Positions 1,559-26,395 of a stretch of DNA of 33,079 nucleotides are shown piece after piece. Source of the DNA: a virus; IMG/VR virus record IMGVR_UViG_3300007541_008634, positions 1 to 33,079 of that record; one strand, given 5' to 3'. Position 1 is the stretch's first letter; the number at the start of each line of letters is the position of its first letter. The translations under genes were made by a program, and so were the position numbers. Under the pieces are notes generated by a model, which was not told the origin of the DNA, did no database searches, and saw nothing but the letters and a program-made list of their open reading frames with translations.

Positions 1559-2312
1559 AATAATTCTCAAATTTATCTTTTATGTTCTGAATGTATTTAT
1601 ACTCATTACCAGGTGATTCTCTAGCAACCTGTAAAGTAAAATCAGATTTATAATTACAGTATTTTAAGGTTCTAAAAATTAATTCAAAATTAGTATCACC
1701 TGTAAATGGTTCTACAGTCTTACCATTTTTTCTATCTTTTATATGAACATTTTTTATCTTATTAACCAAAGTATGAATAAATTCTTCATGTTGATTGTTA
1801 TAACTTGTTATATTACCAGTGTCATAAGTAACATAAAACATTTCATTTGAGTTAACTATATCCAAAGTTTTTATTGGATCTAATTCTGGTTCAAAAAGAA
1901 AAATTAATGATGGATATTCTTCTTTAAATTTATTAATATTTTGAATAAAAAGTTTTCTTCTATAATCATCTTCCATACTACTCTTTTCGAGAAGAGGAAT
2001 TGTTATTGAACTTATATTATTCTCTATAGCATTATCACATACTTCTGTAAGATTTTCCTTTAAGAAGGTTATGTCTTCTATTTCTTCATGAATAATATGA
2101 TCGCAGCATATGGTATTGATTTTATAATCTGCCAGATATTCTTTAAATAATGGATTATCACGATATGATGATTCTGTTACTAACCACTCAATATGAGACA
2201 ACCCCAGTTCATCTATGAACTTAAATTCATCTTTCCATGTATCGAATGGAAATTCTTGTATATGATTTTTAACGGGAGGAGATAATCTTCCCTGAATGAT
2301 ACCTAGTTTCAT
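1545..2312 (-). CDS. Sugar phosphate isomerase/epimerase-like TIM barrel
   Basis: 255 residues starting MKLGIIQGRLSPP, the first strand typical of the xylose-isomerase-like/AP-endonuclease-2 TIM-barrel superfamily. Metal-ligand-type residues occur late in the barrel: FEPE, TYDTGN, and NVHIKDR, where His-x-Lys-Asp is the usual motif. It probably isomerises or epimerises a sugar or sugar-phosphate with a divalent metal. It overlaps the aminotransferase gene by four bases (ATGA type) and the SDR by 14, so it belongs to the nonulosonate operon. The substrate cannot be told from the fold alone. A dehydratase or keto-sugar epimerase role is possible. Confidence 0.8.
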   Translation of the reverse strand: MKLGIIQGRLSPPVKNHIQEFPFDTWKDEFKFIDELGLSHIEWLVTESSYRDNPLFKEYLADYKINTICCDHIIHEEIEDITFLKENLTEVCDNAIENNISSITIPLLEKSSMEDDYRRKLFIQNINKFKEEYPSLIFLFEPELDPIKTLDIVNSNEMFYVTYDTGNITSYNNQHEEFIHTLVNKIKNVHIKDRKNGKTVEPFTGDTNFELIFRTLKYCNYKSDFTLQVARESPGNEYKYIQNIKDKFENYYESI

Positions 2313-3280
2313 TTGAAATTATAAGGAGTGGGTGCTTTTGTATCCAAAACAAATTCGTTATTGAAATTAACTATTTGTTGACGAATATCTACACCAACAT
2401 TCTTACTCCATTGGTTTAAAAGTTTTTGCGTTATATTACCCATAGGTTTATCACCCAATTTTACAGAATTTATAGATGAAACTGGTAATAAGCAAAATGG
2501 TGTTGCTGTCATAAACGATTCATCTGCTGTATATGCGTCATAAAGAGTTAAGTTCTTTTCTACACATTTTATACCTAATTGTGAACACAAATCAAAAATA
2601 TAATCTCTAGAAATGCCTCTTAATATATTTCTACCTTCTGGACTATAAACAATACCATCCTTCACAAAGAAAACATTATCTCCACTGCCCTCTGCTATAA
2701 ACCCGTCTTGATCTAAAAGTAATGCCCAGTTATTCTCACCTTTAAACTGTGATGCTTCTATATTAGCCATCTGATAATGGATTCTGCTTCTATTTTTTAT
2801 CTTAGCATCTAAAAATTGTTCGGGAATAGCGCGTTGAGAAGTAACAACAGCATTTATACCGACATCAAATAATTTACCCATACCACTAACCGTCCATTTT
2901 AATGGAAAGTCTGCTACTATTACAGTTGGTTGGACTTTATCAAACAAATGTGAATAGATGCCAAGCGGTCCTCTACTAACATTTATCATAAGTCGATGTT
3001 CATCTGTATCTTTAAATAGATGATCATTCACTTCTACAGTTTTATTACAAATATCGATCAATTCTTCTTGAGTATATTGAATTGGTATTCTTAATATCTT
3101 TAAACCATTAAAAAGTCTTGTTATATGTTCTTTTAATTTAAATTGCTTCTTGTTAAAAGATCTTGTCATTTCAAAAACCATATCACCAAACATCAAAGCA
3201 GAATCATATATTGAAATTTTAGCATCAATTTCATCTATAAATTCACCATTAAAAAATACTTTTCTGCCGGACTTATTCAT
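2309..3280 (-). CDS. Class IV (BCAT/D-amino-acid-type) PLP aminotransferase
   Basis: Fold-type IV PLP enzyme of about 323 residues, as for branched-chain or D-amino-acid aminotransferases and aminodeoxychorismate lyase. It begins VFFNGEFIDEIDAKIS then DSALMFGD, both standard for the family. The candidate Schiff-base lysine lies in AKIKNRSRIHYQ; EGSGDNVFFV and the ILRGISRD phosphate-binding segment follow. I chose the ATG at 3280 because GGAG lies seven bases upstream; an earlier in-frame ATG at 3292 lacks a clear site. The start overlaps the NeuA-like gene by eight bases. It is unusual to find this fold, rather than a DegT/AHBA-type (fold I) aminotransferase, inside a nonulosonate block. It may supply an amino group to the sugar or act on an amino-acid substituent. 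Confidence 0.85.
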   Translation of the reverse strand: MNKSGRKVFFNGEFIDEIDAKISIYDSALMFGDMVFEMTRSFNKKQFKLKEHITRLFNGLKILRIPIQYTQEELIDICNKTVEVNDHLFKDTDEHRLMINVSRGPLGIYSHLFDKVQPTVIVADFPLKWTVSGMGKLFDVGINAVVTSQRAIPEQFLDAKIKNRSRIHYQMANIEASQFKGENNWALLLDQDGFIAEGSGDNVFFVKDGIVYSPEGRNILRGISRDYIFDLCSQLGIKCVEKNLTLYDAYTADESFMTATPFCLLPVSSINSVKLGDKPMGNITQKLLNQWSKNVGVDIRQQIVNFNNEFVLDTKAPTPYNFK

Positions 3281-3959
3281 GGCATTCTCCATATAATTTA
3301 TTTTTATACAATAACTTACACAATTCTAAATCTTCGTAACTATCTATCTCAAACATTTTCCAACTTTCCATTAAAGATAAACCAATTCTACCACCTAAAC
3401 GATTATTATTATTGATTAATATGTTCTTTCTAAAAACATAAATTGAACCATTTTCCACGAACTGTGGATTACTATCTTGTCTGCGGACTCGTTTTTTATA
3501 ATCGTAATTTACACTATTCAGTATTCCATTTTTGTTTTCCCATATAAGGAAATCTTCCAGTTTACATGCCGAGAATACGGAATCATAATCGTTCGTCAAT
3601 AATGTTTCTATTGCATTATCAATATCTTGAGTTGTCCTTAATGGAGAAGTTACTTGCATAAAAATTACTGTTTCAAACAAGTCATCACTACCAACAACAC
3701 CAAGGGCATGTTTTAATGCATCTTCTGATAAAGAAGTATCGTCAGAAATCGAATCTGGTCGTTTAATAGACAAAGCACCATATGATTCTGATACTTTTAA
3801 TATCTCATCACTGTCAGAGGAAACATATACATTTGTTATGTATTTTGATTTTAAAGCTTGAAGTATTGAATATGAAATTAAAGGTTGACCATTAAAGTCA
3901 ATTATATTCTTTTTTGGTATGCCTTTACTTCCACCTCTTGCTAATAATATACATTTCAT
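3273..3959 (-). CDS. neuA: CMP-nonulosonic acid synthetase (acylneuraminate cytidylyltransferase)
   Basis: Activates a nonulosonic acid with CTP to the CMP-sugar donor used by glycosyltransferases. The 228 residues match the usual single-domain length. The N-terminal CTP loop is LLARGGSKGIPKKN, then SSDSDEIL, RPDSISDDTS, and QVTSPLR, all characteristic of the family. A further conserved stretch reads FVENGSIYVF. An ATG start at 3959 lies 12 bases after the stop of the upstream glycosyltransferase. Together with NeuB it commits this phage to a CMP-activated nine-carbon sugar. Whether the acid is neuraminic, legionaminic or another is not decidable by eye. Confidence 0.92.
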   Translation of the reverse strand: MKCILLARGGSKGIPKKNIIDFNGQPLISYSILQALKSKYITNVYVSSDSDEILKVSESYGALSIKRPDSISDDTSLSEDALKHALGVVGSDDLFETVIFMQVTSPLRTTQDIDNAIETLLTNDYDSVFSACKLEDFLIWENKNGILNSVNYDYKKRVRRQDSNPQFVENGSIYVFRKNILINNNNRLGGRIGLSLMESWKMFEIDSYEDLELCKLLYKNKLYGECHE

Positions 3960-3971
3960 TAATTCAATCTC

Positions 3972-4817
3972 TTATAAAAACCTATCAGTTGCTGTAATTA
4001 ATTGTTCTAAAGTGTTATCTTCTTTTTTGTATCTTTTGAATAAAATTTCTGTTATATTTTTATTCAACCAGTTTACTATTTCTGGTTTATTCTGTCCACT
4101 GACGACATTTGATAGAACCATATTCTTTCTTAATCCACCAGCCATTGGCCAGATGCCACTATCGGTTGATATGAAAACTTTACAAGAATCTAATAGATAT
4201 AGATCATCCAACATTGTTTTATCTTTTATTCTGGTGAAATCTATTATATGTTTATGACTTGGCATTTCTGTCTGTTTAGGATCACCTATTCTAACAACAG
4301 TAATACCTTTATTGGCATAATGCAATGCCAACTTAAAGAATGTGTCCTTATTGACATTTCTCTCTGGTTCACAATTATCACCATCCACTCTTTTCCAGTA
4401 TGTTTTACCTTCTCTAAACTGCATCAATATAAACGGTGAAGGTATTTCATATTTTTTATTATAATCTTCATGTGGAAATCTAAGATAATATTGAACATCC
4501 TTTAGATTAGCCCAAACTGAAGGGTAGTTTCTACATACAGAACCAAAATAAACATCTGGCATTATTATATCATGTAAATCTGTATACCCGTTAAATTTTA
4601 CATTTAGATGATCCAGATCATATTTTTCCTTATCGAAGAAAAATATATCATTCTCTTTTACATGGGGAATACACATGGCAAAATATTTTTGAAATAAAGA
4701 CTCAACATAAATTTTTGGTTGTGTGTCATTATTCTTCTGTATAAAATTAGAAAGATTCACACATTGCTCTGCAGAATTACCCAGAGCATCTTCATGTCTC
4801 CATATACCATATTTCAT
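3972..4817 (-). CDS. Probable glycosyltransferase, GT-B-like (TIGR04372-like)
   Basis: 281 residues. The C-terminal half carries VVRIGDPKQT, HIIDFTRIKD, then DDLYLLDSCKVFISTDSG. This layout resembles the nucleotide-sugar-binding half of GT-B enzymes annotated as TIGR04372-type or GT9-like glycosyltransferases, where a D-x-G near the end of a strand contacts the donor. No signal peptide or membrane segment is seen, so it is cytoplasmic. It overlaps the next gene by four bases. Its position directly before the CMP-sugar synthetase makes it a candidate transferase for the nonulosonate, but this is inference and no CMP-specific motif is visible. Confidence 0.6.
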   Translation of the reverse strand: MKYGIWRHEDALGNSAEQCVNLSNFIQKNNDTQPKIYVESLFQKYFAMCIPHVKENDIFFFDKEKYDLDHLNVKFNGYTDLHDIIMPDVYFGSVCRNYPSVWANLKDVQYYLRFPHEDYNKKYEIPSPFILMQFREGKTYWKRVDGDNCEPERNVNKDTFFKLALHYANKGITVVRIGDPKQTEMPSHKHIIDFTRIKDKTMLDDLYLLDSCKVFISTDSGIWPMAGGLRKNMVLSNVVSGQNKPEIVNWLNKNITEILFKRYKKEDNTLEQLITATDRFL

Positions 4818-5170
4818 TTCTTTTCATCTCCCCAATTCGAATATTTTTTAGTGTTTATTGGATTGTAATTTACTTTACCTTTAATTAAATTAATAAACAT
4901 TTTATCAATGCTCTCTACAAGCATTGGTCTTTTTTCTTTAAATAACGATTCTGATTTTTTCCGATACTTTACTAATTCTTCATCGGTTTTACAATTAGCC
5001 ATTGCGTCTTCAAGATACCAGTATCTTATATGAACGATTATAAGTTTATCAATTAATTCAGAAAAAGTATCAGAATATATTGAATCATATTCTGGAAATT
5101 TATTTTCTTGTAAAATTTTATTTACTCTGGTTTTGATATATTCGTCAAATGATTCACCTAAACTTTTCAT
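4814..5170 (-). CDS. Small helical protein of unknown function (DUF4254-like)
   Basis: 118 residues, largely helical and charged. The segment LIDKLIIVHIRYWYLEDAM recalls the LxDKL...H...W.LED pattern found in DUF4254 proteins encoded in bacterial sugar loci; this is a by-eye resemblance only. It overlaps both neighbours by four bases (ATG/stop), so it is translated with the glycosyltransferases around it. No catalytic motif seen. A regulatory or scaffolding role in the sugar pathway is conceivable but not supported directly. Confidence 0.6.
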   Translation of the reverse strand: MKSLGESFDEYIKTRVNKILQENKFPEYDSIYSDTFSELIDKLIIVHIRYWYLEDAMANCKTDEELVKYRKKSESLFKEKRPMLVESIDKMFINLIKGKVNYNPINTKKYSNWGDEKK

Positions 5171-5925
5171 GATAACTCCGGGAAAGTTTTCATAACATTT
5201 GTAAGAGGAGAAGTTTCTGATAAGTTTATAACTTCTACATTAATATTCTTAGCACTATCACTTAAAACTTTAAAATCCATCAATATTTCATCTTTCCAAT
5301 GAGAAAATGAATCTGGGTTTTTAGTTATATCATCAAAATACCCTGCTTTATAATTCAAATCCACTCCACTTATATAAATTTTCTTACAACCACTCAATAT
5401 AGCAAATCCAACCATATGAAGAGCGACTGTATGACCAGCACCATATGATTTACTATAATTTGTATATTTTTGTACATATGATTGTATCAGGGGAACTTCT
5501 TCTTCTGATACTAAAGATGATGCTCTATTATAACAAAAATATTTTATATTTAATAGTTTTTCCAAGTTGATGCTCTGATCAACTCCGATTGCAAATGCTA
5601 ATATACCATTACATTCACCGAGTCTATTGAATTTATCATAATAATTTTCAACTCTTTGAATACTATTTGCCATTATCCAAAAATCTGGTTGTATTTCCTT
5701 AATCATATCAATACCGATGTTTGCAAATAATTCATCTGCTGTGCCACAAACAAAAACACAATATTTATCCTTTTGAACTGCTAATTGCTTTATTTTGCTC
5801 AAAAATCTTTTTGTTGATGGACCATTTGCAATAACTATTGCTGTTTTACTTTTGTGACTGTCTATAATATCATCTATAGATAGAGGTACTTTTAATTCCG
5901 CATATTTTGTTTTTACTGTGTACAT
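5167..5925 (-). CDS. DUF115/MptE-like protein, putative sugar transferase
   Basis: 252 residues. The N-terminal IVIANGPSTKRF is the glycine-rich loop of the DUF115 (MptE-like, Maf-like) family, followed by FVCGTADELF, PDFWIMAN, then SYGAGHTVALHM and KIYISGVDLNY. Members include flagellin-modifying Maf proteins that attach nonulosonic acids, and 6-hydroxymethylpterin pyrophosphokinases. In this locus a glycan-transfer role is more likely. It overlaps genes on both sides by one to four bases. A second, more distant member lies at 12677-13630. It could be the enzyme that puts the nonulosonate on protein; this is inference. Confidence 0.7.
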   Translation of the reverse strand: MYTVKTKYAELKVPLSIDDIIDSHKSKTAIVIANGPSTKRFLSKIKQLAVQKDKYCVFVCGTADELFANIGIDMIKEIQPDFWIMANSIQRVENYYDKFNRLGECNGILAFAIGVDQSINLEKLLNIKYFCYNRASSLVSEEEVPLIQSYVQKYTNYSKSYGAGHTVALHMVGFAILSGCKKIYISGVDLNYKAGYFDDITKNPDSFSHWKDEILMDFKVLSDSAKNINVEVINLSETSPLTNVMKTFPELS

Positions 5926-6728
5926 TATTTTAATCCGTTTGTGATTGCTTTATCTAAAGAATTTGAAACACCATTATTCATTTCATTTGCTATATTAAAA
6001 TTTTTGATAACAGATTCTATTTTTGAATTGTATAGTGATTCGTTTAAATTATTTATATTAACATTTCCATTCAATATATCGTTTAACCAAATTATACCAT
6101 TAGAATCAAAAACATTTGATATTGATCTACTACCATAAAAAATTGGTATTGTTCCAGATAAAAAGCAATCTAAAAGTTTTTCTGTATAATATAAATTAGT
6201 AACATGATTTTCCATACAAAATGAAAATCTATAATCTGCAAGACCTTCTATTTTTTTAGTTATTTCTTTTCTACCCCTACCAAATACATCACAAAACTTC
6301 CCAAATTTATTGACCATTTCGTGTCTAAATGCATGTTCTTCACACATATTTTTATTTGATGCAATAAATGAAATATTTTTAGTTTTATTGTAAACTTGTC
6401 TTTCTTCACCATTTACCCAAGCACCGAATGGAGGTGAAATATGTATAAAATTTTTAGTATTTGAAAAAAAATCTCTATCATAAGATAGGATATATTTTAA
6501 TCTATTACTATTATTTAATGCATAGTGATAATGTTTTGAGTGTATGGATTTTGGTTCAACTAAAAACAAACTACAGTTATCTGGAACATTTGTACTATCA
6601 AAATATATTACATTATCGGATGGACTATTATCTAAAATATTTTCCCATGTATTATTTAAAGACTTAAAATATTTTAAATCTGTATTCTGATAAGCACTCC
6701 AATACAGTTTTAATTTTTGTAAACTCAT
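5925..6728 (-). CDS. GT10-like (alpha-1,3-fucosyltransferase type) glycosyltransferase
   Basis: 267 residues. The C-terminal half has the GT10 signature: DVFGRG, LADYRFSFCMENH, then YTEKLLDCFLSGTIPIFYG. This matches the family pattern of Tyr-x-Phe-x-x-x-x-Glu-Asn followed by TEK and GxxP(I/V)xxG, which binds GDP-fucose in known members. The N-terminal acceptor half is poorly conserved. No membrane segment. It overlaps its upstream neighbour by four bases. Donor specificity beyond GDP-sugar is not shown, and no GDP-fucose synthesis genes are in the window, so a host donor or genes elsewhere would be needed. Confidence 0.8.
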   Translation of the reverse strand: MSLQKLKLYWSAYQNTDLKYFKSLNNTWENILDNSPSDNVIYFDSTNVPDNCSLFLVEPKSIHSKHYHYALNNSNRLKYILSYDRDFFSNTKNFIHISPPFGAWVNGEERQVYNKTKNISFIASNKNMCEEHAFRHEMVNKFGKFCDVFGRGRKEITKKIEGLADYRFSFCMENHVTNLYYTEKLLDCFLSGTIPIFYGSRSISNVFDSNGIIWLNDILNGNVNINNLNESLYNSKIESVIKNFNIANEMNNGVSNSLDKAITNGLK

Positions 6729-7660
6729 GATTTAAGATCCTCTATAGTTTTTGTTAGGATATCATAATCATAATTACCATTGCACCATCTCTTACCACCA
6801 TGATCATTTGATTCTGAATATTTTGTTTGGAATGTGCAACCAGTATCCATGTTTAAAAATATTTTAGCATATAACGACCAACGACCTAAAGCCCATTCTG
6901 CATAAGATTTTGGTGGATTCGATTTGTTATAAAATATAGAACAACCAGAACCAACCCCACCAAAATGAACTATTCTAGAACCACAATCAAAATTTAAATT
7001 TGAAGCATAACCATTTTCTTTGCTGCCCAAATTATCCATACCACCATATTCTGTTGTTTTTAAGAATTTTATTTTTGCACCATTTGATAATGCAGAAAAA
7101 ACCACAGGATCAAAAAAATCTAATGTTCTATGCTTTAATGGATTTGCCCATCCACCACACATTCTTACAAAATATTCAAAATCATAACTTGGTATTTTTG
7201 TTCTGTTTATACCGAATGCATATGTTGAAATTGTATCGTGATAATTATCCAATCCCCTAACACCACTCAAATTGTGTTTATATGCTCTTGGACTACCAAC
7301 TATATCATAACCGTTATTGAGTTCATTACTTATAGTAGAAACACAATCTGATTTAAATATCACATCAGAATCAAAATGTATTACATGATCACTATTTGAC
7401 CATTTTAATAGTGCATTTGCAAAACATAAAGCAGTTCCTGCATGTCCATTTTTCCATGAATCAGAAAATTCTTTTTGATTTGATACATTTATTATTTTTA
7501 CATTTTTATGATTTACTATATCACCAGCGTATTTCAAATCATCATCGGTACAAACTATGTGTATAATTTTATCATGATATTTTAAATAACTTTCCAAAAA
7601 CGGTTTCAATAGCGAGCCACAATTAAAAAATTCACTAAAGATAAATGGTTCAATATTCAT
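6725..7660 (-). CDS. GT-A-fold glycosyltransferase
   Basis: 311 residues. The D-x-D-type motif HFDSDVIF lies at about residue 96, after a Rossmann-like N-terminus (IIHIVCTDDD). A conserved-looking downstream block includes YAFGINRT and MCGGWANPL, and late HFGGVGSGCS could supply the divalent-metal histidine. These features indicate a nucleotide-sugar-dependent GT-A enzyme using a metal ion, but no numbered family is clear. It overlaps the GT10 gene by four bases and starts four bases after the stop of the gene at 7665-8516. Cytoplasmic. Confidence 0.7.
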   Translation of the reverse strand: MNIEPFIFSEFFNCGSLLKPFLESYLKYHDKIIHIVCTDDDLKYAGDIVNHKNVKIINVSNQKEFSDSWKNGHAGTALCFANALLKWSNSDHVIHFDSDVIFKSDCVSTISNELNNGYDIVGSPRAYKHNLSGVRGLDNYHDTISTYAFGINRTKIPSYDFEYFVRMCGGWANPLKHRTLDFFDPVVFSALSNGAKIKFLKTTEYGGMDNLGSKENGYASNLNFDCGSRIVHFGGVGSGCSIFYNKSNPPKSYAEWALGRWSLYAKIFLNMDTGCTFQTKYSESNDHGGKRWCNGNYDYDILTKTIEDLKS

Positions 7661-7664
7661 TTTT

Positions 7665-8516
7665 TTATCCTAAAATAGTTTTAAGTATTTGTTTATTGCC
7701 TTCTGTTATATTGTTTTTATAATTTTTTATAAAAATAGTTTTATATGGTAAGTATTTTTGTCTAGCAGTTATCATGCTTTCACTATTATACCCCATATTA
7801 ATATCATCGACCCAACCACCGGGTCCAAGAATAATAACATTCGAATTGGTCATTAAATGTGTGGATATACTACCTGCATTTCCAATACTAATAACATAAT
7901 CACATAAAGAAAATAAAGAGCAATTTATATTATATGACTCTATTAATTCTCCTGGTTCCCAGTAATATTCTGGATCAAATAAAAAGTTTGGTTTATCAAA
8001 TGTACAATTTATGACAAAAATTTTATTTTGTATCAAAATTTTTATCAAGTCTTCTAAATTATTATTATATCCTGGTAATTTTTTTAAATTTCTACCATTG
8101 ATACAAACTATAGGTTTATTCCTATTTAATATTTTTTTTGTTTCATCAATATTTTTTTGCGGTGATTCAAATAGATGTTTTTTATTTTCAATCATATATT
8201 TTGTATAAGAAGAAAATAAAAATTTATATAAATGTCTATCAGGGTGTATTTCATCTATACATCTTCTATTGGTTATTATATCTTCTTCACTAACCAAATT
8301 TAATATTTTATTTTTAATAATAGCATCCCTACCTGTACATGATAGTTTGTGTATTTCTTTTGGTCTTTCTACTATAATTTTATTTTTAATTAGAGGGTAT
8401 AAACACTCATACCCCTCAAAAATAACGACATGAGGTTCTTCTTTAAAATGATTATAATAAAAATTAACACTAGGATATGAATTAAATTCGTCCCAGTTTG
8501 ATTCTAAAATTTTCAT
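7665..8516 (-). CDS. Putative GT-B-like glycosyltransferase
   Basis: 283 residues. The C-terminal half reads PIVCINGRNLKKL, then CSLFSLCDYVISIGNAGSI and VIILGPGGWV, which resembles the donor half of GT9/GT-B type enzymes where a strand-end glycine-serine contacts the nucleotide-sugar. The N-terminal half (HVVIFEGYECLY) is the matching Rossmann half. The match is to fold layout, not a specific family. It sits one base after the stop of the galactosyltransferase-like gene. High AT content, like the rest of the island. Confidence 0.55.
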   Translation of the reverse strand: MKILESNWDEFNSYPSVNFYYNHFKEEPHVVIFEGYECLYPLIKNKIIVERPKEIHKLSCTGRDAIIKNKILNLVSEEDIITNRRCIDEIHPDRHLYKFLFSSYTKYMIENKKHLFESPQKNIDETKKILNRNKPIVCINGRNLKKLPGYNNNLEDLIKILIQNKIFVINCTFDKPNFLFDPEYYWEPGELIESYNINCSLFSLCDYVISIGNAGSISTHLMTNSNVIILGPGGWVDDINMGYNSESMITARQKYLPYKTIFIKNYKNNITEGNKQILKTILG

Positions 8517-8517
8517 T

Positions 8518-9375
8518 TTATATATTAATCCCGTATTTTTGTTTGTAATTTTTATTTTTATAATATTGCATCAATGCTTGAGTATCCATGCCTTGTAATT
8601 TTAAATTCAATAATTTATTGTTAGGAGTTGTTATTCTTCTATTATCTGCTTCATATTCATGTTCGATATGATATAAATTGCCTTCAACTGTTCCTTGTTT
8701 ATAACCAAACAAATGTAATCTTTGTTTTCTTTCAGCATCTTCCGGTCCATAACCACAGAAATCTTCATTCTCCATACCACAATCTATGTAAACATTTCTT
8801 TTTATAAAAATACATCCACCAGGAGGACATCCCCTAATAATACCAGGTGGTCTTTTACGGAAATGTAATTTTTCATTTTTATCGTGTATTCCCTTTATAC
8901 CTTCAGTATATAAATGAAAATCAAAATTTGTTAAAAGTTTATTTCTTTCTTCTTGTAAAGATTTTGGAATTTCAATATAATTTTCATTAAATGGGAAACA
9001 ATAATCAAAACCATCCATCAACAATTGTCTTGCTTTTATCAATTGCTCTATTGGTATTAACACATCAACATCATAAGGTATTACAATATCTTCTGTTGTT
9101 TCCGTTAACCCCATATTATATAATTTTGTTTTATGAAAACCACCTTTATCATTATAAATTTTGTATTTTACATTTAAATTTGTAAAATTTAATTTTTCAA
9201 TAATAGATAAAGTTTTTGGTTCTCCAGCCTTCAAATCTATCTGTTCAACAATAATTACATTTGTTGTTAGAAAAGTATTTAAAAATCTTAAAATATGTAA
9301 TAGATTTATTTCTCTATCTTCATTTCCTGCTTTTCTATATGGTATTAAAAAGCAACAATTTTTAAAATCATGCAT
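8518..9375 (-). CDS. GT7-like (beta-galactosyltransferase C-terminal type) glycosyltransferase
   Basis: 285 residues. The N-terminal half is a GT-A domain starting FLIPYRKAGNED, with a D-x-D motif in YDVDVLI. The diagnostic block is GGCIFIKRNVYIDCGMEN then FCGYGPEDAER, close to the GG.. ..GF.E.FWGWGxED pattern of beta-1,4-galactosyltransferase and polypeptide GalNAc-transferase C-terminal domains. A late YHIEHEYE may supply the metal-binding His. Acceptor and donor are unknown. It starts 15 bases after the GT11 gene's stop. Confidence 0.75.
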   Translation of the reverse strand: MHDFKNCCFLIPYRKAGNEDREINLLHILRFLNTFLTTNVIIVEQIDLKAGEPKTLSIIEKLNFTNLNVKYKIYNDKGGFHKTKLYNMGLTETTEDIVIPYDVDVLIPIEQLIKARQLLMDGFDYCFPFNENYIEIPKSLQEERNKLLTNFDFHLYTEGIKGIHDKNEKLHFRKRPPGIIRGCPPGGCIFIKRNVYIDCGMENEDFCGYGPEDAERKQRLHLFGYKQGTVEGNLYHIEHEYEADNRRITTPNNKLLNLKLQGMDTQALMQYYKNKNYKQKYGINI

Positions 9376-9390
9376 AATATATTTCTTTCG

Positions 9391-10152
9391 TTATAACAAG
9401 AACCAGTCTTCACAGTATATATCTTGAGTCTCAGCAGGTCCTCTTTTACCAAACCATTCTTTAGGTGCTATTATTAACTTGTCTTTATTTTCTATAAACC
9501 ATGCACCCCACCAACTAAAAGAACTATTAGCAATAATTCCGGACATACATGTTTTCATTTTATATAGTGAAATAAAAGGAGAGTCTGATGAAAAGAAAAT
9601 ATTTTTTTGATCAAAACATTTATATTGTTTTGCTCCTTCAATATCATCAGAAAAAACCATAAATTTAGTATTAGAACCAAATTTATTTTTTATTTTTTCT
9701 ATAGAAGTTTCATAATATTCTTCAGAACAAAGTGGATGCACATCTGGGTACTTTAAATAATCTCCTCTACGAACATGTATAAAAACATAATCCGATAAAG
9801 GAGAATCTTCTTGTTTAAATTTTATTATGGATCTTAATTCATTTTCATATTGTTTAAAATATTTTTCAGATTGAAAATAACCAATTAAATCATCAACTTG
9901 TTTATTCCATATTTCTGGATTATATGAAAATTTCTTTTCAACATATGTTGATGTTGGTGTTATATTGCTGACAAATAATATGTCACATTTAACATCAAAA
10001 CACTTAAAAAACATACTATTTTTTTTATCTGAAGTGAATAGTATTTGTTTATTTTTTAATTTTGAGTATGAATATACAGCACAAAATTGGAATAACTGAT
10101 TTCCCAAGTGACCATAAGAACCAAATCTAGAAAATGTTATATGATTACTCAT
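9391..10152 (-). CDS. GT11 alpha-1,2-fucosyltransferase-like protein
   Basis: 253 residues, slightly shorter than typical bacterial GT11 (about 290). The family landmarks are clear: GHLGNQLFQF at the N-terminus, HVRRGDY (the HxRRxD GDP-fucose motif) near residue 125, FSDD, and IANSSFSWWGAW. GT11 enzymes move fucose from GDP-fucose to galactose in alpha-1,2 linkage. It has no membrane anchor. With the GT10-like gene this makes two fucosyltransferase-type enzymes in one phage locus. Its ATG directly abuts the stop of the GT25 gene at 10153. Confidence 0.88.
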   Translation of the reverse strand: MSNHITFSRFGSYGHLGNQLFQFCAVYSYSKLKNKQILFTSDKKNSMFFKCFDVKCDILFVSNITPTSTYVEKKFSYNPEIWNKQVDDLIGYFQSEKYFKQYENELRSIIKFKQEDSPLSDYVFIHVRRGDYLKYPDVHPLCSEEYYETSIEKIKNKFGSNTKFMVFSDDIEGAKQYKCFDQKNIFFSSDSPFISLYKMKTCMSGIIANSSFSWWGAWFIENKDKLIIAPKEWFGKRGPAETQDIYCEDWFLL

Positions 10153-10767
10153 TTATTGTCTCAAAAAATTATAATCTACAATTTTATTTTCAATATCAGA
10201 GAAATCTTTTCTCTGCCATGCTAATGCTGGTACAAATCCATAACAAGGAACTAGTTTTTGTATATTAGAGAGATGAACATCTACTTCACCATCATAAATT
10301 TTATTATCGGAAAATTCTTGCAGTAGTAAGGGTATGACATTTTTTTTTACAGCGTAACAATGTGTTGTATAGGTTTTAACTAGTCTATGAACATGTGCTG
10401 ATACTAATTTCGGAGTAATTGAATTGTGATTTCCTCCAAAATACAACAACTGCCAATCTAATGGTACTTCATTATAATATTGTTCAAACAAAAGATGTAA
10501 ATTGTCATCAAATTCAACATCATCTTCCAATATTAAAACATTTTCCCAATCATTTGATAAAATATATTCAAATATTTTTTTATGAGACATACAGCAGCCT
10601 CTGTGCCCTGGTGTAATTTTTCCTCTTTGTGGTAGTGTTGCCCCATCAACTGCATTAAAATACTCCACATTTAGATTAAATTTTTTAAAAATAAAATCAC
10701 ATATGTCTTTTCTATCTTTTCTTTTTTCCAAATTTAAACATATAATTTTAAAATCATTTAGTTTCAT
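10153..10767 (-). CDS. GT25-family glycosyltransferase
   Basis: 204 residues. It begins IICLNLEKRKDRKD, continues YFNAVDG, then GCCMSHKKIFEYI and NVLILEDDVEFDD: the GT25 (LPS core/procollagen galactosyltransferase) pattern NLxxRxDR ... GxxxSH ... EDD. The EDD is the metal/donor site. A downstream block THCYAVKKN is also typical. The 14-base overlap with the gene at 10754-11440 and the shared family suggest a tandem duplication. Transfers galactose or a similar hexose in characterised members. Confidence 0.85.
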   Translation of the reverse strand: MKLNDFKIICLNLEKRKDRKDICDFIFKKFNLNVEYFNAVDGATLPQRGKITPGHRGCCMSHKKIFEYILSNDWENVLILEDDVEFDDNLHLLFEQYYNEVPLDWQLLYFGGNHNSITPKLVSAHVHRLVKTYTTHCYAVKKNVIPLLLQEFSDNKIYDGEVDVHLSNIQKLVPCYGFVPALAWQRKDFSDIENKIVDYNFLRQ

Positions 10768-11440
10768 GTGTATAATGCCTTACAAAATTTATAGTATTAT
10801 TTAAATTATATGATGTCCAAGTTTTATTTGTAGGATCACAATTAACATTAGTAGTTGGCCAACATTTATCCCATTGAAAAAATAAAGATTTTATTGGTGC
10901 GTATACATTTAATTTTGGCAATACATCTTTAGCGTAACCAACATCTAATGGAATTTGTTTACTTATAGTATCTTTTGAATTTTTTATAAATTTTTGTATA
11001 GAATTATTTAAAAAAATCATAGCATGTGTGCCCAAACAATGTTGTAGTCTCATCCATTTTTCATTTACTGGAAGTGGTAAAAAATTAACACCAATTGTAT
11101 TCCAATCACCACCAGTAGAATATCCAAGATATAGAACATCAGCATCATCAGGAACTTCTATTTTACCATCAATGACATATTCACCATACCAAATTGTGTT
11201 TTTTGCATCATCTTCTAATATGAATAATGGAAGATTTTCTTTATATTGCTCCATCAAATCATGGTGGCTTTGACTACAACCATGATTAAATGCTCTTATT
11301 TTTCTCAATTCTCTTGCGGAAAACCTATTACAATTATTGTATCCCAATTCTTTTAGGGTGTTTTCAAATCTATTTTTTCTTTCAACATCTCTATCCAGAT
11401 TGATATATACTTTTTTAATATTTTGTAAATCAATTATCAT
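10754..11440 (-). CDS. GT25-like glycosyltransferase
   Basis: 228 residues with the same plan as its neighbour: VYINLDRDVERKNRFE, FSARELRKI, GCSQSHHDLMEQ, then LFILEDDAKN. The Ser-His and Glu-Asp-Asp elements of GT25 are intact. A mid-block TGGDWNTIG separates these from a less conserved C-terminus (GTHAMIFLN). It overlaps the genes on both sides by 4 and 14 bases. It may use a different acceptor from the neighbouring GT25. Confidence 0.78.
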   Translation of the reverse strand: MIIDLQNIKKVYINLDRDVERKNRFENTLKELGYNNCNRFSARELRKIRAFNHGCSQSHHDLMEQYKENLPLFILEDDAKNTIWYGEYVIDGKIEVPDDADVLYLGYSTGGDWNTIGVNFLPLPVNEKWMRLQHCLGTHAMIFLNNSIQKFIKNSKDTISKQIPLDVGYAKDVLPKLNVYAPIKSLFFQWDKCWPTTNVNCDPTNKTWTSYNLNNTINFVRHYTHETK

Positions 11441-12063
11441 TTTATAGTTCTTTTTAATCTTCTACTTGCTTGTGTATGTTCTATAACTATTTCTTTTGGT
11501 TCTTCAAACCATTTACAATCAAAAACTTTACAATAAGACTGATCAAAGAAATATGTCTTCAATCCTTCTCTATCATATTTATCCCAAACTTTTTGGAGAC
11601 TTTGTTGTTCCCATCTATTTGGATTTTCTTGACTTTCTTTTTTCCAATCATCAATTAAATTAAAACATTTATCTGTATAATTGAAAAACATAGTACCACC
11701 TGCTAATGCTTCATTACCCCTATCGAATCCCCAAGGTCTTAGATGTACATTTTTTGGCTGATTCCAGACATTTGGAATAAAATAAGCACCAAAATCACAT
11801 TCATATAATTCTTTTGAATCAAACACATTTGGATGGGACTTATATCGACCATCCGCATCTATCCACAATATTGATCTTTTATGTTCGTATAAAGCAGTTA
11901 GTATTACTTCTGCTTTCATTGTGCAGTTATGAATCCAAGAACCTTTACTTAATTTGGGATATGCAGCAAAATCTAAATTGAATTGCTTACAGGTTTCTTC
12001 TAATTGTCTTGCTTCTTCTTTATATTCTGGAGTATAAAAAGTAATAGTTACTGGGTAAATCAT
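11437..12063 (-). CDS. GT-A-like nucleotide-sugar transferase (paralogue 1)
   Basis: 208 residues. VTITFYTPEY, then KGSWIHNCTMKAEVIL, then SILWIDADGR, with the D-A-D as the likely metal motif; later GGTMFFNYTD and WEQQSLQKVW. The same elements in the same order occur in the next gene, GSWVDNCNIKPEFIL and VVWVDSDAKI, so the two are tandem paralogues. Similar small GT-A proteins occur in phage sugar loci, but no numbered family is assigned. It overlaps both neighbours by four bases. Confidence 0.65.
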   Translation of the reverse strand: MIYPVTITFYTPEYKEEARQLEETCKQFNLDFAAYPKLSKGSWIHNCTMKAEVILTALYEHKRSILWIDADGRYKSHPNVFDSKELYECDFGAYFIPNVWNQPKNVHLRPWGFDRGNEALAGGTMFFNYTDKCFNLIDDWKKESQENPNRWEQQSLQKVWDKYDREGLKTYFFDQSYCKVFDCKWFEEPKEIVIEHTQASRRLKRTIK

Positions 12064-12680
12064 TTTCTATCCACTCTCTGCATCACTGATGCTAAATCAT
12101 GTAAAACCACTGCTTTGTCTCTTCCATGTAATCTATCTATTTGACAATAATTTCTCGGAAACCATTCTGTTGTTGGTTGAACATCTGCCCATGCTTGTTG
12201 TAGACTCCATTGATCCCATGATCTTGTCATTGATTTGGATAGTTCCAACCATCTCTCTACCATTCTTATAACACTATTACACTTTCTAAACAACATAGTA
12301 CCAGAATTAAACCACATTAATTCAGTTTGAAGTGGCCAATTCTTTGGTAATTCTATTTCTTCTCTTCCTACTGGAGTTTTCTTTCTTGCTCCAGGTTCTC
12401 CACGAACACCAAAATCCATTGGTGTATCAATAAACAAATATGGGTAACTCATTATTTTTGCGTCAGAGTCCACCCATACCACACAATCAACATCTTCATT
12501 TAATTTTTTAAGTATAAATTCAGGTTTGATATTACAATTATCAACCCAAGAACCTCTGTCTTTATATTTTTCTATATCACATTCTATACTGAATTTTTTA
12601 CAAGAATCTTTTAGTTTTTTTGCCATATCGGCATATATTCCATTATCAGTATAAAAACTTATAATTTTAAATTCATTCAT
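12060..12680 (-). CDS. GT-A-like nucleotide-sugar transferase (paralogue 2)
   Basis: 206 residues, a paralogue of the preceding-coordinate gene: KIISFYTDNG, RGSWVDNCNIKPEFIL, VVWVDSDAKIM (D-S-D metal motif), FNSGTMLFRK and WDQWSLQQAW. The conserved WSLQ and the GTM block suggest both share an acceptor-binding loop. It overlaps the DUF115-like gene by four bases. Function is inferred from fold signs only. Confidence 0.65.
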   Translation of the reverse strand: MNEFKIISFYTDNGIYADMAKKLKDSCKKFSIECDIEKYKDRGSWVDNCNIKPEFILKKLNEDVDCVVWVDSDAKIMSYPYLFIDTPMDFGVRGEPGARKKTPVGREEIELPKNWPLQTELMWFNSGTMLFRKCNSVIRMVERWLELSKSMTRSWDQWSLQQAWADVQPTTEWFPRNYCQIDRLHGRDKAVVLHDLASVMQRVDRK

Positions 12681-13630
12681 TTATTGTTTCTCAATTGTTT
12701 TTTTACATCTAAAGATCTTCTTCTAGAATCTCTTCTTTCTGAAATTGGAGAAGATGGTTTTAGGGAATCTTGTTTAATTACCTTTTGTATGGGTATTGTT
12801 TCTACTTTTTTCTCTATAGTATTTGGATTTTTAAAAGTATCTACCTTTTTATTTTCTCTTATTTGTACTATTGGTTTTTTTGGTTTTACTTCTTGCTTTG
12901 GTTCTTGTTTTGGTTGTGGTGGAATAAATTCTATTAAGGGAAAGGTAATTGGAGCATATTGTTTTAATTGCTCCTTGCCCTCACTTTCCCACCATTGCAA
13001 ATCAAATTTAGGAACAAAAGATTCAAATATTTCACCACATTCCCAAGAAAACCATTTATATCCTCTTTTAATTGCGATTGGATACCATTGTTTTAAAGCA
13101 TTGGAAGTTTGATCTAAAGTTTTATCATAATTGTATGCTTTCTTCATATCAAAATCTTTTACTTCATAGCAGTATTTTTCTTTCATACTATTTGCTTTTA
13201 AATCATTTCCTACCCAAATTACATTTTTGACACCAATATAATGTAACCACTGTATTGCAAATGTAACAGATTTGTGTGGTCCTCTAATAAATGGTTGATG
13301 ACCAGTAAATAAATGTGCATCTAAATCTGAGTATCTAGTTGAAGTATCATATTTACAAGAAACCACAGACTCTGGTTTTGCTCCAACTGATATTTTACCT
13401 TCAGGTAAAACTTTTATTATATTCGGATTCGAATATGCTAAAGACCCTTCCGGTCCATGCATTTCATTCAAATAATCTGCTATAATCCAAAAATCAGGAT
13501 TTGTTATTTTTCTTATAACTGTGCTTACTGCAACTACTGGAAGACCCAAACTAAAAGGATCTATTTTATTTAATGATGGACCAGAGCATGCTAATACACA
13601 TGTATTGGTTGGAAAATATTTTTCTGACAT
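12677..13630 (-). CDS. DUF115-like protein with lysine/proline-rich C-terminal tail
   Basis: 317 residues. The N-terminal CVLACSGPSLNKIDP is the DUF115-type glycine-serine loop, followed by VVAVSTVI, NPDFWIIADY, GPHKSVTFAIQWLHYIG and VIWVGNDLK. The last 80 or so residues are a low-complexity, mostly basic tail rich in Lys, Pro and Gln, ending in RRDSRRRS and KKQLRNNK. That tail is absent from the other DUF115-like gene here (5167-5925) and could bind a protein or nucleic acid. It is the first gene of the sugar island in transcription order; its ATG is one base beyond the nuclease stop. Confidence 0.65.
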   Translation of the reverse strand: MSEKYFPTNTCVLACSGPSLNKIDPFSLGLPVVAVSTVIRKITNPDFWIIADYLNEMHGPEGSLAYSNPNIIKVLPEGKISVGAKPESVVSCKYDTSTRYSDLDAHLFTGHQPFIRGPHKSVTFAIQWLHYIGVKNVIWVGNDLKANSMKEKYCYEVKDFDMKKAYNYDKTLDQTSNALKQWYPIAIKRGYKWFSWECGEIFESFVPKFDLQWWESEGKEQLKQYAPITFPLIEFIPPQPKQEPKQEVKPKKPIVQIRENKKVDTFKNPNTIEKKVETIPIQKVIKQDSLKPSSPISERRDSRRRSLDVKKQLRNNK

Positions 13631-18091: not shown

Positions 18092-18116
18092 AGTAACAGT
18101 AATCTATTTAGTTAAG

Positions 18117-18199
18117 TAGGAGCGACAGGACTCGAACCTGCATGATCTTTCGACCAGAACGTTTTAAGCGTTCCGTGTATTCCGTTCCACCACGCTCCC
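18117..18199 (-). tRNA. tRNA-Leu(UAA)
   Basis: Class II tRNA, 83 bases: acceptor GGGAGCG/CGCTCCT, anticodon loop CTTAAAA in GAACG/CGTTC, long variable arm, T loop TTCGAGT, discriminator A. First gene of the eight-tRNA array, just after the sigma70-like promoter at 18209. Confidence 0.93.
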
Positions 18200-18208
18200 A
18201 ATAAAGAT

Positions 18209-18653: not shown

Positions 18654-18911
18654 ATGTGTAGTTATTTCTAACTACACACCCATGATTCGTTCAGATGCGG
18701 GTGAATCAATCCCCACTGCTTCAAGCAGCCATTGCTAATTCGTTAGCAATTATTGTTTACAACTATTTTTTAACGAGACTTGTTGCCTGTCCCGAATATC
18801 TCCCTTTTCCTTACTCAACACCATTCGAATACCTATACAGCCCCGTCGAGTGGAGCTGAGGAGAGTCGAACTCCTGTCATGATTGTCTTTCATTGAAGAT
18901 CAACGATATCA
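18654..18911 (-). ncRNA. ssrA: Circularly permuted (two-piece) tmRNA
   Basis: In transcription order: acceptor piece (about 18911-18851) with T arm AGGAG-TTCGACT-CTCCT, acceptor strand CAGCTCC and discriminator A (18851); a six-base spacer (18850-18845); then the coding piece from G18844, whose GGGGCTG pairs fully with CAGCTCC, including the G3-U70 alanine identity pair. GGTATTCGAATGG follows as the tmRNA D domain. Pseudoknot 1: GGGAC/GTCTC with GCAAC/GTTGT, ending 11 bases before the resume codon. The tag frame ends in a hairpin CTGCT-TGA-AGCAG with the stop in the loop. Pseudoknot 2: TGATTC/GAATCA interleaved with ACCC/GGGT. A ten-pair GAAA-capped hairpin (18655-18678) closes the 3' end. 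The P2 pairing is only partly clear (TGTTG with TGACA). CCA is not encoded. The order of pieces is the reverse of standard ssrA, as in alphaproteobacterial and cyanobacterial two-piece tmRNA. Confidence 0.9.
18721..18747 (-). other. tmRNA tag reading frame, ANELAMAA-stop
   Basis: Resume codon GCT at 18745-18747, then AAC GAA TTA GCA ATG GCT GCT TGA. With the alanine brought by the tmRNA the added peptide would be A-ANELAMAA. The AN start and small-hydrophobic AMAA end match the known pattern of proteolysis tags (E. coli ends ALAA). The T at -5 and A at -4 before the resume codon agree with the E. coli UAGUC element. Confidence 0.85.
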
Positions 18912-18916
18912 AAGAT

Positions 18917-18924
18917 TATTTATA
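18917..18924 (-). promoter_or_regulatory. T4-type late promoter TATAAATA before the tmRNA
   Basis: Exact octamer between tRNA-Gly and the acceptor piece. Start site would be near 18911. Some bases lie next to the end of tRNA-Gly, so read-through from that tRNA is a second possible source. Confidence 0.6.
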
Positions 18925-18925
18925 A

Positions 18926-18996
18926 AGCGTGTAGTGGGATTTGCACCCACGAGATCAGAATGGAAATCTGATATGTTACTACTACATCATACACGC
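18926..18996 (-). tRNA. tRNA-Gly(UCC)
   Basis: 71 bases: acceptor GCGTGTA/TACACGC, D stem ATGT/ACAT with loop AGTAGTA lacking the usual GG, anticodon loop TTTCCAT in TCAGA/TCTGA, T arm GTGGG/CCCAC with unusual loop TGCAAAT. The weak D and T loops suggest some divergence. Confidence 0.82.
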
Positions 18997-18999
18997 TTA

Positions 19000-20950: not shown

Positions 20951-21023
20951 TGACCCCACCGGGACTCGAACCCGGATGACCGCCTTGAAAGGGCGGGAAT
21001 TTAGCCAGTTAATCTATGGGGCC
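20951..21023 (-). tRNA. tRNA-Glu(UUC)
   Basis: Acceptor GGCCCCA/TGGGGTC, anticodon loop CTTTCAA in CCGCC/GGCGG, T arm CCGGG/CCCGG, discriminator A. The last ten bases of the RNA methyltransferase gene lie inside its 5' end. Confidence 0.93.
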
Positions 21024-21574
21024 AGAATACCTGCTTCAACCTTGCGACAATAATCATACATTGCAATTGATGAAGCACAACCAACATTCAAACTTCTAAC
21101 CGATCCATACTGAGTAATATACAGAATATCATCACATCTATCAATAAGTTCTTTGGGAATTCCAACTTGTTCTTGACCAAAAATCATTAGAACATGTTCA
21201 TTGCTTGGCCAACTATAATCTTCAATTGGTCTTGCATTTTTAATATTATCAATTCCTACAACACGAAGTGTTCCGTATTGTCGAATCATGTTTTGAATTT
21301 TTAATTCGAGTTGTTGTCCATCCTTGCAATGAACAAAACGATTATAATTATGAGTACCAACGGTGCCACGCCTATCATATTGTTTACTTCCATATAGAAT
21401 GATTTCCTTTGCAAGAAAAGCATTTGAATTTCTAATAACTGTTGCAATATTAAAATCATTATATAAATTACTACAAAGAACAGTAAAATTATGTCTATGC
21501 TTATCTAGGTCTGCAAGAATTGCTTCTTGCTTCCAATAATGATAATGATCAATAATATTACGAGTTTCTGACAT
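21014..21574 (-). CDS. TrmH/SpoU-family tRNA/rRNA 2'-O-methyltransferase
   Basis: 186 residues. The three SPOUT motifs are intact: 1 NIATVIRN (42-49), 2 IFGQEQVGIP (131-140), 3 SVRSLNVGCASSIA (158-171). The trefoil-knot enzyme methylates a 2'-hydroxyl of tRNA or rRNA using AdoMet. The start is ATG at 21574, three bases after the end of tRNA-Ile; the frame is open further but only through that tRNA. No ribosome site is visible, so tRNA processing may leave a near-leaderless message. The stop lies within tRNA-Glu. Placed between tRNAs, it probably modifies phage or host tRNA (perhaps position 34 or 18). Confidence 0.88.
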   Translation of the reverse strand: MSETRNIIDHYHYWKQEAILADLDKHRHNFTVLCSNLYNDFNIATVIRNSNAFLAKEIILYGSKQYDRRGTVGTHNYNRFVHCKDGQQLELKIQNMIRQYGTLRVVGIDNIKNARPIEDYSWPSNEHVLMIFGQEQVGIPKELIDRCDDILYITQYGSVRSLNVGCASSIAMYDYCRKVEAGILAP

Positions 21575-21577
21575 AAG

Positions 21578-21649
21578 TAGGATACCAGAGACTCGAACTC
21601 TGCAATAAGTCGTTATAAGCGACTCTGTGCCACCCGACACATGTATCCC
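21578..21649 (-). tRNA. tRNA-Ile(UAU)
   Basis: Acceptor GGGATAC/GTATCCT, anticodon loop CTTATAA in AGTCG/CGACT, T arm CAGAG/CTCTG, discriminator A. Reads AUA directly; most bacteria use a lysidine-modified CAU instead. The D arm (GTGT/GCAC, six-base loop) is followed by two unpaired bases instead of one. Confidence 0.87.
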
Positions 21650-23676: not shown

Positions 23677-24669
23677 TCAAATACTTTCCTTATCACCAGA
23701 GAAAGTAATTTCATGTAAATCACTACCATCGCTAAACATCAAAGTATCTTGAACATAAGCAGACATCATAACAAAACTTGTAAAATTTTGCAATTCATTT
23801 TTATGAATTACTTTAAATTCTCCAACCTTCTTAAGAACATCACACTTATTTATGATGAGTTCAGTGCATCCAGAAAGTTGAATGGACTTCTTCAACTTAT
23901 CAAGATTCAACCAATTCACTAATCGTTTACGACCCGTAGTAGAACCAAATTCTTGACCCTCCTCAATAATTCGATTCAGTACGGGATCATTCCACAATGT
24001 TTCAGGAAAAAGTGGATCTTTACCACTCTTTGTATCATATGCTTTTGCAACACCGATCAATCTACGAATTTTTTTTGGTGAAAATCCAAGAGAGCACGAA
24101 GCATACGGCATCGTTGTACTACTAGTAACGAATGGATAATCACCATGATCAATATCAAGCCATACACTTTGTGCTCCTTCGCAAAGAATTTTTCCTTCTA
24201 ACTTACCATCCCACAACCATTCTGAGATAAAGTATTCCTTTGCTCTCCTGCCTCTACGCAACATCTTATCTGAATAGCAAGGAGCAATTCCTTGAGAAGT
24301 TGTTCCCAAGTGACCAAGATTCTTCTTATCCCATTCTATATGTTCTTCGGTAATAATATGTGCGTTTGGATGAATCTTGATAAGAGAAGTATCAAATCCT
24401 GCTGCACGAAGTCCACGAATCTCTTCAAAGAATTTATCCGTGTTGATTACACATCCCGGTCCAATTACACACTTCTTTCCAGCAAAGATACCGGATGGAA
24501 TAATATGAGTTTTGAATTTTTGTCCATTTACATAAACGGTGTGACCAGCATTTGGTCCACCGTTCCAACGACAAACATAATCATATTTTGGAGCAAGAGC
24601 ATTAGAAATCTTTCCCTTGCCTTCATCGCCCCATGCTAAACCATAGATTACATCTACATAATCAATCAT
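23677..24669 (-). CDS. purA: Adenylosuccinate synthetase, short (archaeal/phage-type)
   Basis: Joins IMP (or a related purine monophosphate) to aspartate with GTP, the first step from IMP to AMP. 330 residues versus about 430 in bacteria, close to the short archaeal and phage forms. Motifs: WGDEGKGK with catalytic Asp15, GGPNAGHT (37-44), TTSQGIAP and RRGRR, CEGAQSVWLDIDHG (163-176) then VTSS, AYDTKSG, FGSTTGRKR, and NKCD (guanine contact). PurZ enzymes of diaminopurine phages are reported to lack the first Asp; here it is kept, favouring PurA-like activity, though PurZ0-type dGMP use cannot be excluded. GMP reductase is encoded one gene upstream on the same strand. Confidence 0.92.
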   Translation of the reverse strand: MIDYVDVIYGLAWGDEGKGKISNALAPKYDYVCRWNGGPNAGHTVYVNGQKFKTHIIPSGIFAGKKCVIGPGCVINTDKFFEEIRGLRAAGFDTSLIKIHPNAHIITEEHIEWDKKNLGHLGTTSQGIAPCYSDKMLRRGRRAKEYFISEWLWDGKLEGKILCEGAQSVWLDIDHGDYPFVTSSTTMPYASCSLGFSPKKIRRLIGVAKAYDTKSGKDPLFPETLWNDPVLNRIIEEGQEFGSTTGRKRLVNWLNLDKLKKSIQLSGCTELIINKCDVLKKVGEFKVIHKNELQNFTSFVMMSAYVQDTLMFSDGSDLHEITFSGDKESI

Positions 24670-25333: not shown

Positions 25334-26395
25334 TCATTTTTCTTGAAATATGTTATTTAACTGACGATTAACACGAATAAAAGTTGTACATTTCGGCAAA
25401 TCCTTAAGTCTTGCCGCGCCGACATATGTGCAAGCAGAACGAACACCACCAAGAATTTGTTGTATAATATTTGAAACTGGTCCAGTCTTTTTAACAAATA
25501 CCTTCTTACCTTCTGCTGCACGATAGGTAGCAACACCACCAGAATGCTTTTCCATTGCAGTAGCAGAAGACATACCATAAAACTCTTTACCGTTCTCCGT
25601 TTCTTCTCCTGCTGCTTCATCTGTTCCTGCAAACATACCACCAATCATAACGAAGTCTGCACCTGCCCCAAATGCCTTGGCTACATCTCCTGGACATGTA
25701 CAACCACCATCAGACAAAACATAACCACCAAGACCATGTGCTGCATCTGCACACTCCATGATGCAAGAGAGTTGTGGATAACCAACACCCGCCACTTTAC
25801 GAGTTGTGCAAACTGAACCCGGACCAATTCCTGCCTTAATAATGTTTGCACCAGCAAGAATTAATGCTTCTGTCATTTCACGAGTAACAACATTACCTGC
25901 AATGATAACATGATTTGGAAATAAACCACGAATTGTTTTAACATAATTTACAAATTTTTCTGTATATCCATTTGCAACATCAAGACAAATAAAACGAATA
26001 TGTTTATGTGTATTTAATATCTTTTCTGCTTTTTGAATTTCTGTTAATGTGGAAGAATCACTACCCATGCCCATAGTGTAAATAATACCACAATAAGGAT
26101 TTGAATATTGACGAAGCCAACCACTTACATTTTTATCCCAATCTTCATCTGAGTAGTATTTGTGTATTGCACACATTGCATCATATTCCGAAAGAGATGA
26201 TGCCATTTCAAATGTTCCAACCGTATCCATATTTGCTGCAACGATTGGTACACCAGACCAAACAAAATCACCAGCCGGTAATTTAAATTTAAATGTGCGT
26301 CGAACTTCTACTTTGCTTCGACTGGCCAGATTGCTACGCTTTGGGCGAATTAGAACATCAGCAAAATCAAGTTTTACATCATCTTCAATCTTCAC
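25334..26395 (-). CDS. guaC: GMP reductase
   Basis: Reduces GMP to IMP with NADPH, releasing ammonia. 353 residues, the normal length (E. coli 347), and close to E. coli GuaC along its whole length: [64 protein letters not shown] with catalytic Cys196, [26 protein letters not shown], and [12 protein letters not shown]. It lacks the CBS domains of IMP dehydrogenase. The start is GTG at 26395 with AAAGGAAA nine bases upstream. With PurA (23677-24669) it would send GMP to AMP through IMP and adenylosuccinate. The gene looks less AT-rich than the sugar island. Confidence 0.96.

Follow-up and report, generated by a model that had tools for sequence, protein, structure and literature searches.

In this study, we identified a circularly permuted tmRNA gene (ssrA) on the minus strand of the window, by which we mean the whole stretch of viral DNA analysed, an IMG/VR virus record of 33,079 bases with 17 tRNA genes. 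We have high confidence that it is a functional, phage-borne permuted ssrA, and its sequence makes it very likely that the product would be a working two-piece tmRNA that uses the RNase P, CCA-adding enzyme, alanyl-tRNA synthetase (AlaRS) and SmpB of the host. An earlier note on this DNA had proposed a phage-encoded permuted tmRNA with all functional parts, and this proposal was corroborated by Rfam, by ARAGORN, by pairing in 24 phage genes and by a syntenic copy on a T4-like contig. The kind of gene is already known, as permuted tmRNAs occur in aquatic phages and in bacteria.

A covariance-model search, which the earlier note had suggested as a check, gave a match to RF04321 (tmRNA_permuted) on the minus strand at 18910-18721 that covers the whole model and scores 76.4 bits (E 3.6e-13), above the gathering cut-off of 47 bits. 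Relative to that model, the window gene has a spacer of 6 nt in place of a longer consensus, and its tag has eight residues. ARAGORN, as an independent method, likewise reported a permuted tmRNA and read its tag as ANELAMAA. The model RF01850 (beta_tmRNA), which also spans the 3' hairpin of the gene, matched at 18963-18652 with 63.4 bits, under its cut-off of 84, so that we class the gene as permuted and do not assign it to the beta subtype. When the window was shuffled 300 times (Markov), a T arm with a permuted acceptor of 7/7 pairs within 40 nt arose 0.007 times per shuffled window, versus two such patterns in the real window, one of which is the tmRNA gene. In addition, the 260-nt tmRNA region folds 4.0 standard deviations below its dinucleotide shuffles (z-score -4.0).

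The layout of the gene in transcription order is the 3' piece of the tRNA-like domain, a six-base spacer, and a coding piece with the pseudoknot PK1, the tag, the stop-codon hairpin and the 3' pseudoknot. The features and the evidence for each are as follows.

18911-18652, minus strand: circularly permuted tmRNA gene (Rfam, ARAGORN and direct reading).
18925-18997, minus strand: tRNA-Gly(TCC), directly upstream of the tmRNA in transcription order (ARAGORN; one of the 17 tRNA genes).
18851-18924, minus strand: acceptor piece (3' tRNA-like), transcribed first; its 5' end would lie after the end of tRNA-Gly (18925) and before the P2 helix (18910).
18906-18910, minus strand: P2 strand GATAT, with its partner ATATT at 18799-18795 in the coding piece; all five positions pair in 24/24 genes, with compensatory types.
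18859-18875, minus strand: T arm AGGAG-TTCGACT-CTCCT (sequence and alignment; the loop fits TTCGANT).
18851-18858, minus strand: 3' acceptor strand CAGCTCC (18858-18852) and discriminator A at 18851 (sequence and alignment).
18845-18850, minus strand: six-base spacer CTCGAC between the discriminator A and the mature 5' G (sequence); close relatives have structured inserts of ~120 nt at this site.
18838-18844, minus strand: 5' acceptor strand GGGGCTG, the start of the coding piece (sequence and alignment); the predicted RNase P site is 18845/18844.
18760-18794, minus strand: pseudoknot PK1, with stem 1 CGGGAC (18794-18789) / GTCTCG (18779-18774) and stem 2 CAAC (18785-18782) / GTTG (18763-18760); stem 2 is paired in 24/24, whereas for stem 1 the count varies among pairs (16-24 of 24) and compensatory types occur.
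18721-18747, minus strand: tag frame ANELAMAA with stop TGA (ARAGORN; the tag is identical in L329, L335, L338 and L333).
18716-18728, minus strand: stop-codon hairpin CTGC/GCAG, paired in 24/24, with one pair covarying.
18683-18714, minus strand: 3' pseudoknot; stem 1 is paired in 24/24, and stem 2 covaries with a weaker outermost pair.
18655-18678, minus strand: 3' terminal hairpin TGTGTAGTTA GAAA TAACTACACA (sequence, relatives and fold).

Direct reading showed that the arrangement given in the earlier note was exact to the base, with the discriminator A at 18851, the spacer CTCGAC at 18850-18845 and the mature 5' G at 18844. The acceptor has seven pairs, G3-U70 is present, and no CCA is encoded after the discriminator. 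The tag codons are GCT AAC GAA TTA GCA ATG GCT GCT TGA (18747-18721); the tag begins with alanine and has an ending of the hydrophobic-Ala-Ala type, and its stop codon sits in a hairpin loop. The alignment resolves the 3' pseudoknot into GGG/CCC (18714-18712 / 18701-18699) as stem 1 and TGATTC/GAATCA (18708-18703 / 18688-18683) as stem 2; a CACCC/GGGTG pairing that can be drawn from the window alone was rejected, being absent in close relatives. In close relatives the 3' terminal hairpin gives way to another stem that keeps the GAAA loop, and in further relatives to terminator-like hairpins with T runs.

Bacterial permuted tmRNAs that we sampled scored 124-166 bits, and the lower score of the window gene indicates that its RNA has diverged. 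A low score would also fit a non-functional host ssrA fragment, recently captured or decaying, a reading that we regard as very improbable in view of the comparison with related phages. Those relatives were located via the SpoU-type methyltransferase (21014-21640) and the adenylosuccinate synthetase (23677-24669), and a syntenic tmRNA copy was found in L329, on a 118-kb T4-like contig, as well as in L335 and L338. When 24 related phage tmRNAs were aligned after removal of their spacers, pairing held in 24/24 for the acceptor, T arm, P2, PK1 stem 2, stop-codon hairpin and 3' pseudoknot stem 1. Changes on both sides of a pair occurred in the acceptor, T arm, P2 and stop hairpin, with P2, for example, appearing as GAUAU/AUAUU, GACAU/AUGUC or AAUGC/GCAUU. 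Stem 1 of PK1 and stem 2 of the 3' pseudoknot also covary, with mismatched cells at certain positions. Conservation of a hairpin over the tag codons was not found across the 24 sequences. The compensatory changes, together with a tag unchanged across related phages, count against a captured fragment, and since relatives have retained both gene and tag, selection is a better explanation than decay.

The origin of the gene was addressed by a tree of 122 candidate permuted tmRNAs (including a few false hits of a simple finder, and without Methylophilales phage Melnitz), in which the window gene falls within a phage-only clade of 24 with modest support (0.65-0.87), outside the sampled alphaproteobacterial, betaproteobacterial and cyanobacterial genes. 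DNA searches of 784 genomes, 385 from the class of a Caulobacter and 399 from the order of a Rhodocyclaceae genome, revealed no close bacterial donor, only short matches that mostly lie in the T arm. Both results speak further against a host fragment. The contig itself might be questioned, since a single metagenomic contig of 33 kb could carry an assembly artefact in its sequence or gene order, but the order and the spacer recur in the separately named contigs L329, L335, L338 and L410 and permuted tmRNAs occur in many further viral contigs, leaving an artefact with a negligible probability.

Several relatives had features worth recording in their own right. L334 (near 5390-5620) and L533 have permuted tmRNAs with a T loop of GGCAGTA or GGCAGTT, not TTCGANT, and L334 is nearly identical to the window gene from PK1 onward, which suggests, from the sequence, that its tRNA-like domain may have been swapped. 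Matches to group I introns (RF00028) were also present in related phages (L426:5440-5620 and L362:10267-10440).

Two-piece tmRNAs made up 53 of 133 phage tmRNA structures in a published survey, 50 of the 53 being from marine or aquatic phages, with carriers that include Methylophilales phage Melnitz, pelagimyophages and cyanophages (PMC9004378). The earlier note had left open whether a permuted phage copy with so short a spacer had been described; permuted phage tmRNAs are thus already published (PMC9004378), and spacers of 5-8 nt proved to be common. Like the window gene, those of Melnitz, pelagimyophages and cyanophages are permuted ssrA genes on aquatic T4-like myoviruses (PMC9004378). However, the Melnitz tmRNA is of the alphaproteobacterial type and comes with a glutamine riboswitch, whereas the window gene belongs to a separate phage-only clade (in a tree without Melnitz), and no Rfam riboswitch family reached its gathering score in the window. 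The closest long relative, G004, is a 118-kb contig whose genes for the major head protein, portal, sheath and terminase are of T4 type. The capsid protein it encodes shares only ~54% identity with its counterparts in cyanophages and Melnitz, and a host assignment from the nearest named capsid proteins was dropped for that reason.

Elsewhere in the window, the PurA-like adenylosuccinate synthetase (23677-24669) and a GMP reductase (25334-26395, minus strand; 519 bits versus a cut-off of 397) form a small purine-nucleotide module. A reading of the former as PurZ, of Z-DNA, was rejected as the PurZ model scored 102 against a cut-off of 300. A sugar gene cluster at 746-12680 (minus strand) includes an SDR oxidoreductase, an aminotransferase, a PseF-like cytidylyltransferase (below cut-off) and, from reading of the open reading frames, several likely glycosyltransferases.

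Short spacers were found well beyond the immediate relatives of the window gene. Spacers of 6 nt (CTTGAC or CTCGAC) occur in L329/L409, L335, L336/L410 and L338, and a pattern scan of viral contigs identified at least 18 permuted tmRNAs with spacers of 5-8 nt and at least 25 with spacers of 15-30 nt; a second scan aimed at short gaps added many more permuted tmRNAs. The spacer is 5 nt long in the named phages S-CAM3 and AG-345-P14, neither of which has its tmRNA annotated; in Synechococcus phage S-CAM3 (L475, KU686198.1 183035-183074 and around), the permuted tmRNA has the spacer TTCAT, and only a hypothetical protein is annotated there. Among bacteria, spacers are 5-7 nt in Prochlorococcus, mostly CTATTT (6 nt), and 7 nt in Accumulibacter and Rhodocyclaceae. 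Prochlorococcus (CTATTT, 6 nt) and Accumulibacter (CCACTAC, 7 nt) share with the window gene the gene order, spacer size, discriminator A and G3-U70. They differ in that the short-spacer bacterial genes L470-L472 have the tag ANDERFALAA rather than ANELAMAA, and in that bacterial comparison spacers such as CCACTAC of Accumulibacter start with CCA, unlike CTCGAC of the window; the CCA position does not always encode CCA (PMC11915505). Hence, the six-base spacer needs no special explanation.

These comparisons also bear on whether the phage RNA could be a decoy, in which the six-base spacer is never removed, the acceptor stem stays a closed hairpin, and the unchargeable RNA binds SmpB or stalled ribosomes and so blocks host rescue. 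The very short spacer and the missing CCA fit such a role, as does a phage tmRNA form lacking the tag coding sequence (DS6A), whose expression in E. coli is reported to inhibit the host tmRNA (PMC11915505). However, a decoy would not need the tag frame, stop hairpin and G3-U70, all of which are conserved, and in Prochlorococcus, where spacers are equally short, Northern blotting revealed that the tmRNA consists of two distinct molecules (PMC1242208). Cutting has therefore been demonstrated in a short-spacer group, in strains different from those whose spacers we measured, and by analogy the window gene would be cut as well. We consider a decoy very unlikely, if marginally less so than a captured host fragment, and prefer the reading of a working two-piece tmRNA.

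Based on the general biology of tmRNA, the window gene would be co-transcribed with the adjacent tRNA-Gly. Host RNase P would cut at 18845/18844 to give the mature 5' end at 18844, and host 3' processing would trim CTCGAC back to the discriminator A at 18851. Because CCA is not encoded, the host CCA-adding enzyme would have to supply it. The acceptor and P2 helices would hold the two pieces together, AlaRS would charge the RNA via G3-U70, and host SmpB would carry the charged RNA to stalled ribosomes, which would add ANELAMAA and so direct the tagged protein to ATP-dependent proteases. No smpB gene came to light in the window during analyses directed at other features. For the phage, the likely gain is that ribosomes would be kept free during infection as host RNA is destroyed, in step with the 17 tRNA genes. 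The sequence is compatible with each of the three roles put forward in the earlier note, namely ribosome rescue, replacement of a damaged host tmRNA and marking of host proteins.

An additional result of the comparison with relatives was that spacers in the clade of the window gene are either ~6 nt or long. The tmRNAs of L333 and L338 differ at 1/64 bases in the acceptor piece and 5/200 in the coding piece, and the L333 spacer is 122 nt. Spacers of ~120 nt contain a structured, previously unclassified RNA of ~110 nt with the outline of a tRNA. Roughly two dozen tmRNA spacers carry it, and it recurs at about a dozen sites elsewhere. Examples of its locations are as follows.

L333:7164-7281, L334:5442-5559, L343:14809-14929 and L426:1273-1390: tRNA-shaped element within tmRNA spacers.
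L466:295-413 (minus strand), L518:9437-9556 and L534:1597-1714, and also L519: free-standing copies near phage tRNA genes.

In L457 and L538, the element lies directly upstream of a one-piece phage tmRNA. Besides an acceptor-like closing helix (5 pairs in the model, 6-8 in individual sequences), its consensus has D-like, anticodon-like and T-like arms and an oversized variable arm. The anticodon-like loop hardly varies (TGACAAG or TGAGAAG), the variable arm includes a conserved internal loop (GTAAAAC/GACAAA), and in some free-standing copies the T-like arm still has the sequence TTCAAGT or TTCGAAT. Compensatory changes were observed in 20/30 pairs, and 97.8% of cells are paired versus 31.9-40.8% with partners slid and a mean of 78.6% in shuffles. 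ARAGORN made no tRNA call on the free-standing copies, and there was no Rfam match to the element in the L343 spacer or the free-standing copy of L534. BLAST searches against named phages gave no match, or only 19 bases in Enterococcus phages, mostly under tRNA-Asp. In the window, no copy was found by pattern or covariance model; a weak match to the element model at 18115-18202 is a tRNA-Leu gene. T4 species 1 RNA (rnaC) resembles the element: it is stable and unassigned, its T arm is tRNA-like, and it is encoded in the tRNA cluster of a T4-like phage. As candidate relatives, T4 rnaC and rnaD were nonetheless rejected, with no evident shared motif and no match of the T4 locus to the element covariance model.

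Other material occupies the same site in some relatives. The L344 spacer, 205 nt overall, holds a complete tRNA-Pro(TGG) at 13260-13334 after the tRNA-shaped element. A different, apparently structured second insert of 96-99 nt (TTAGCCTAACCGAA...) lies at about 11957-12055 in L345, where it had no Rfam match, with homologues in L346, L462 and L468.

The L362 spacer, TTCGAC, is identical to the opening six bases of the filled spacer of L464. This identity, together with the near-identical tmRNAs that have either short or filled spacers, makes the short spacer look like an empty insertion site for tRNA-like genes. On balance we lean towards a reading in which the six-base spacer is an empty cassette site and the insert, absent from the window, represents a new family of stable RNAs, carried by T4-like aquatic phages and connected with ribosome rescue or with processing of the tmRNA 5' end. 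The insert lies outside the window and is the part that deserves more study, with L333 and L338 being a natural pair for testing both the cutting of the permuted precursor and the insert's own function. The window gene, for its part, adds to the permuted tmRNAs a phage-only branch with its own conserved tag.
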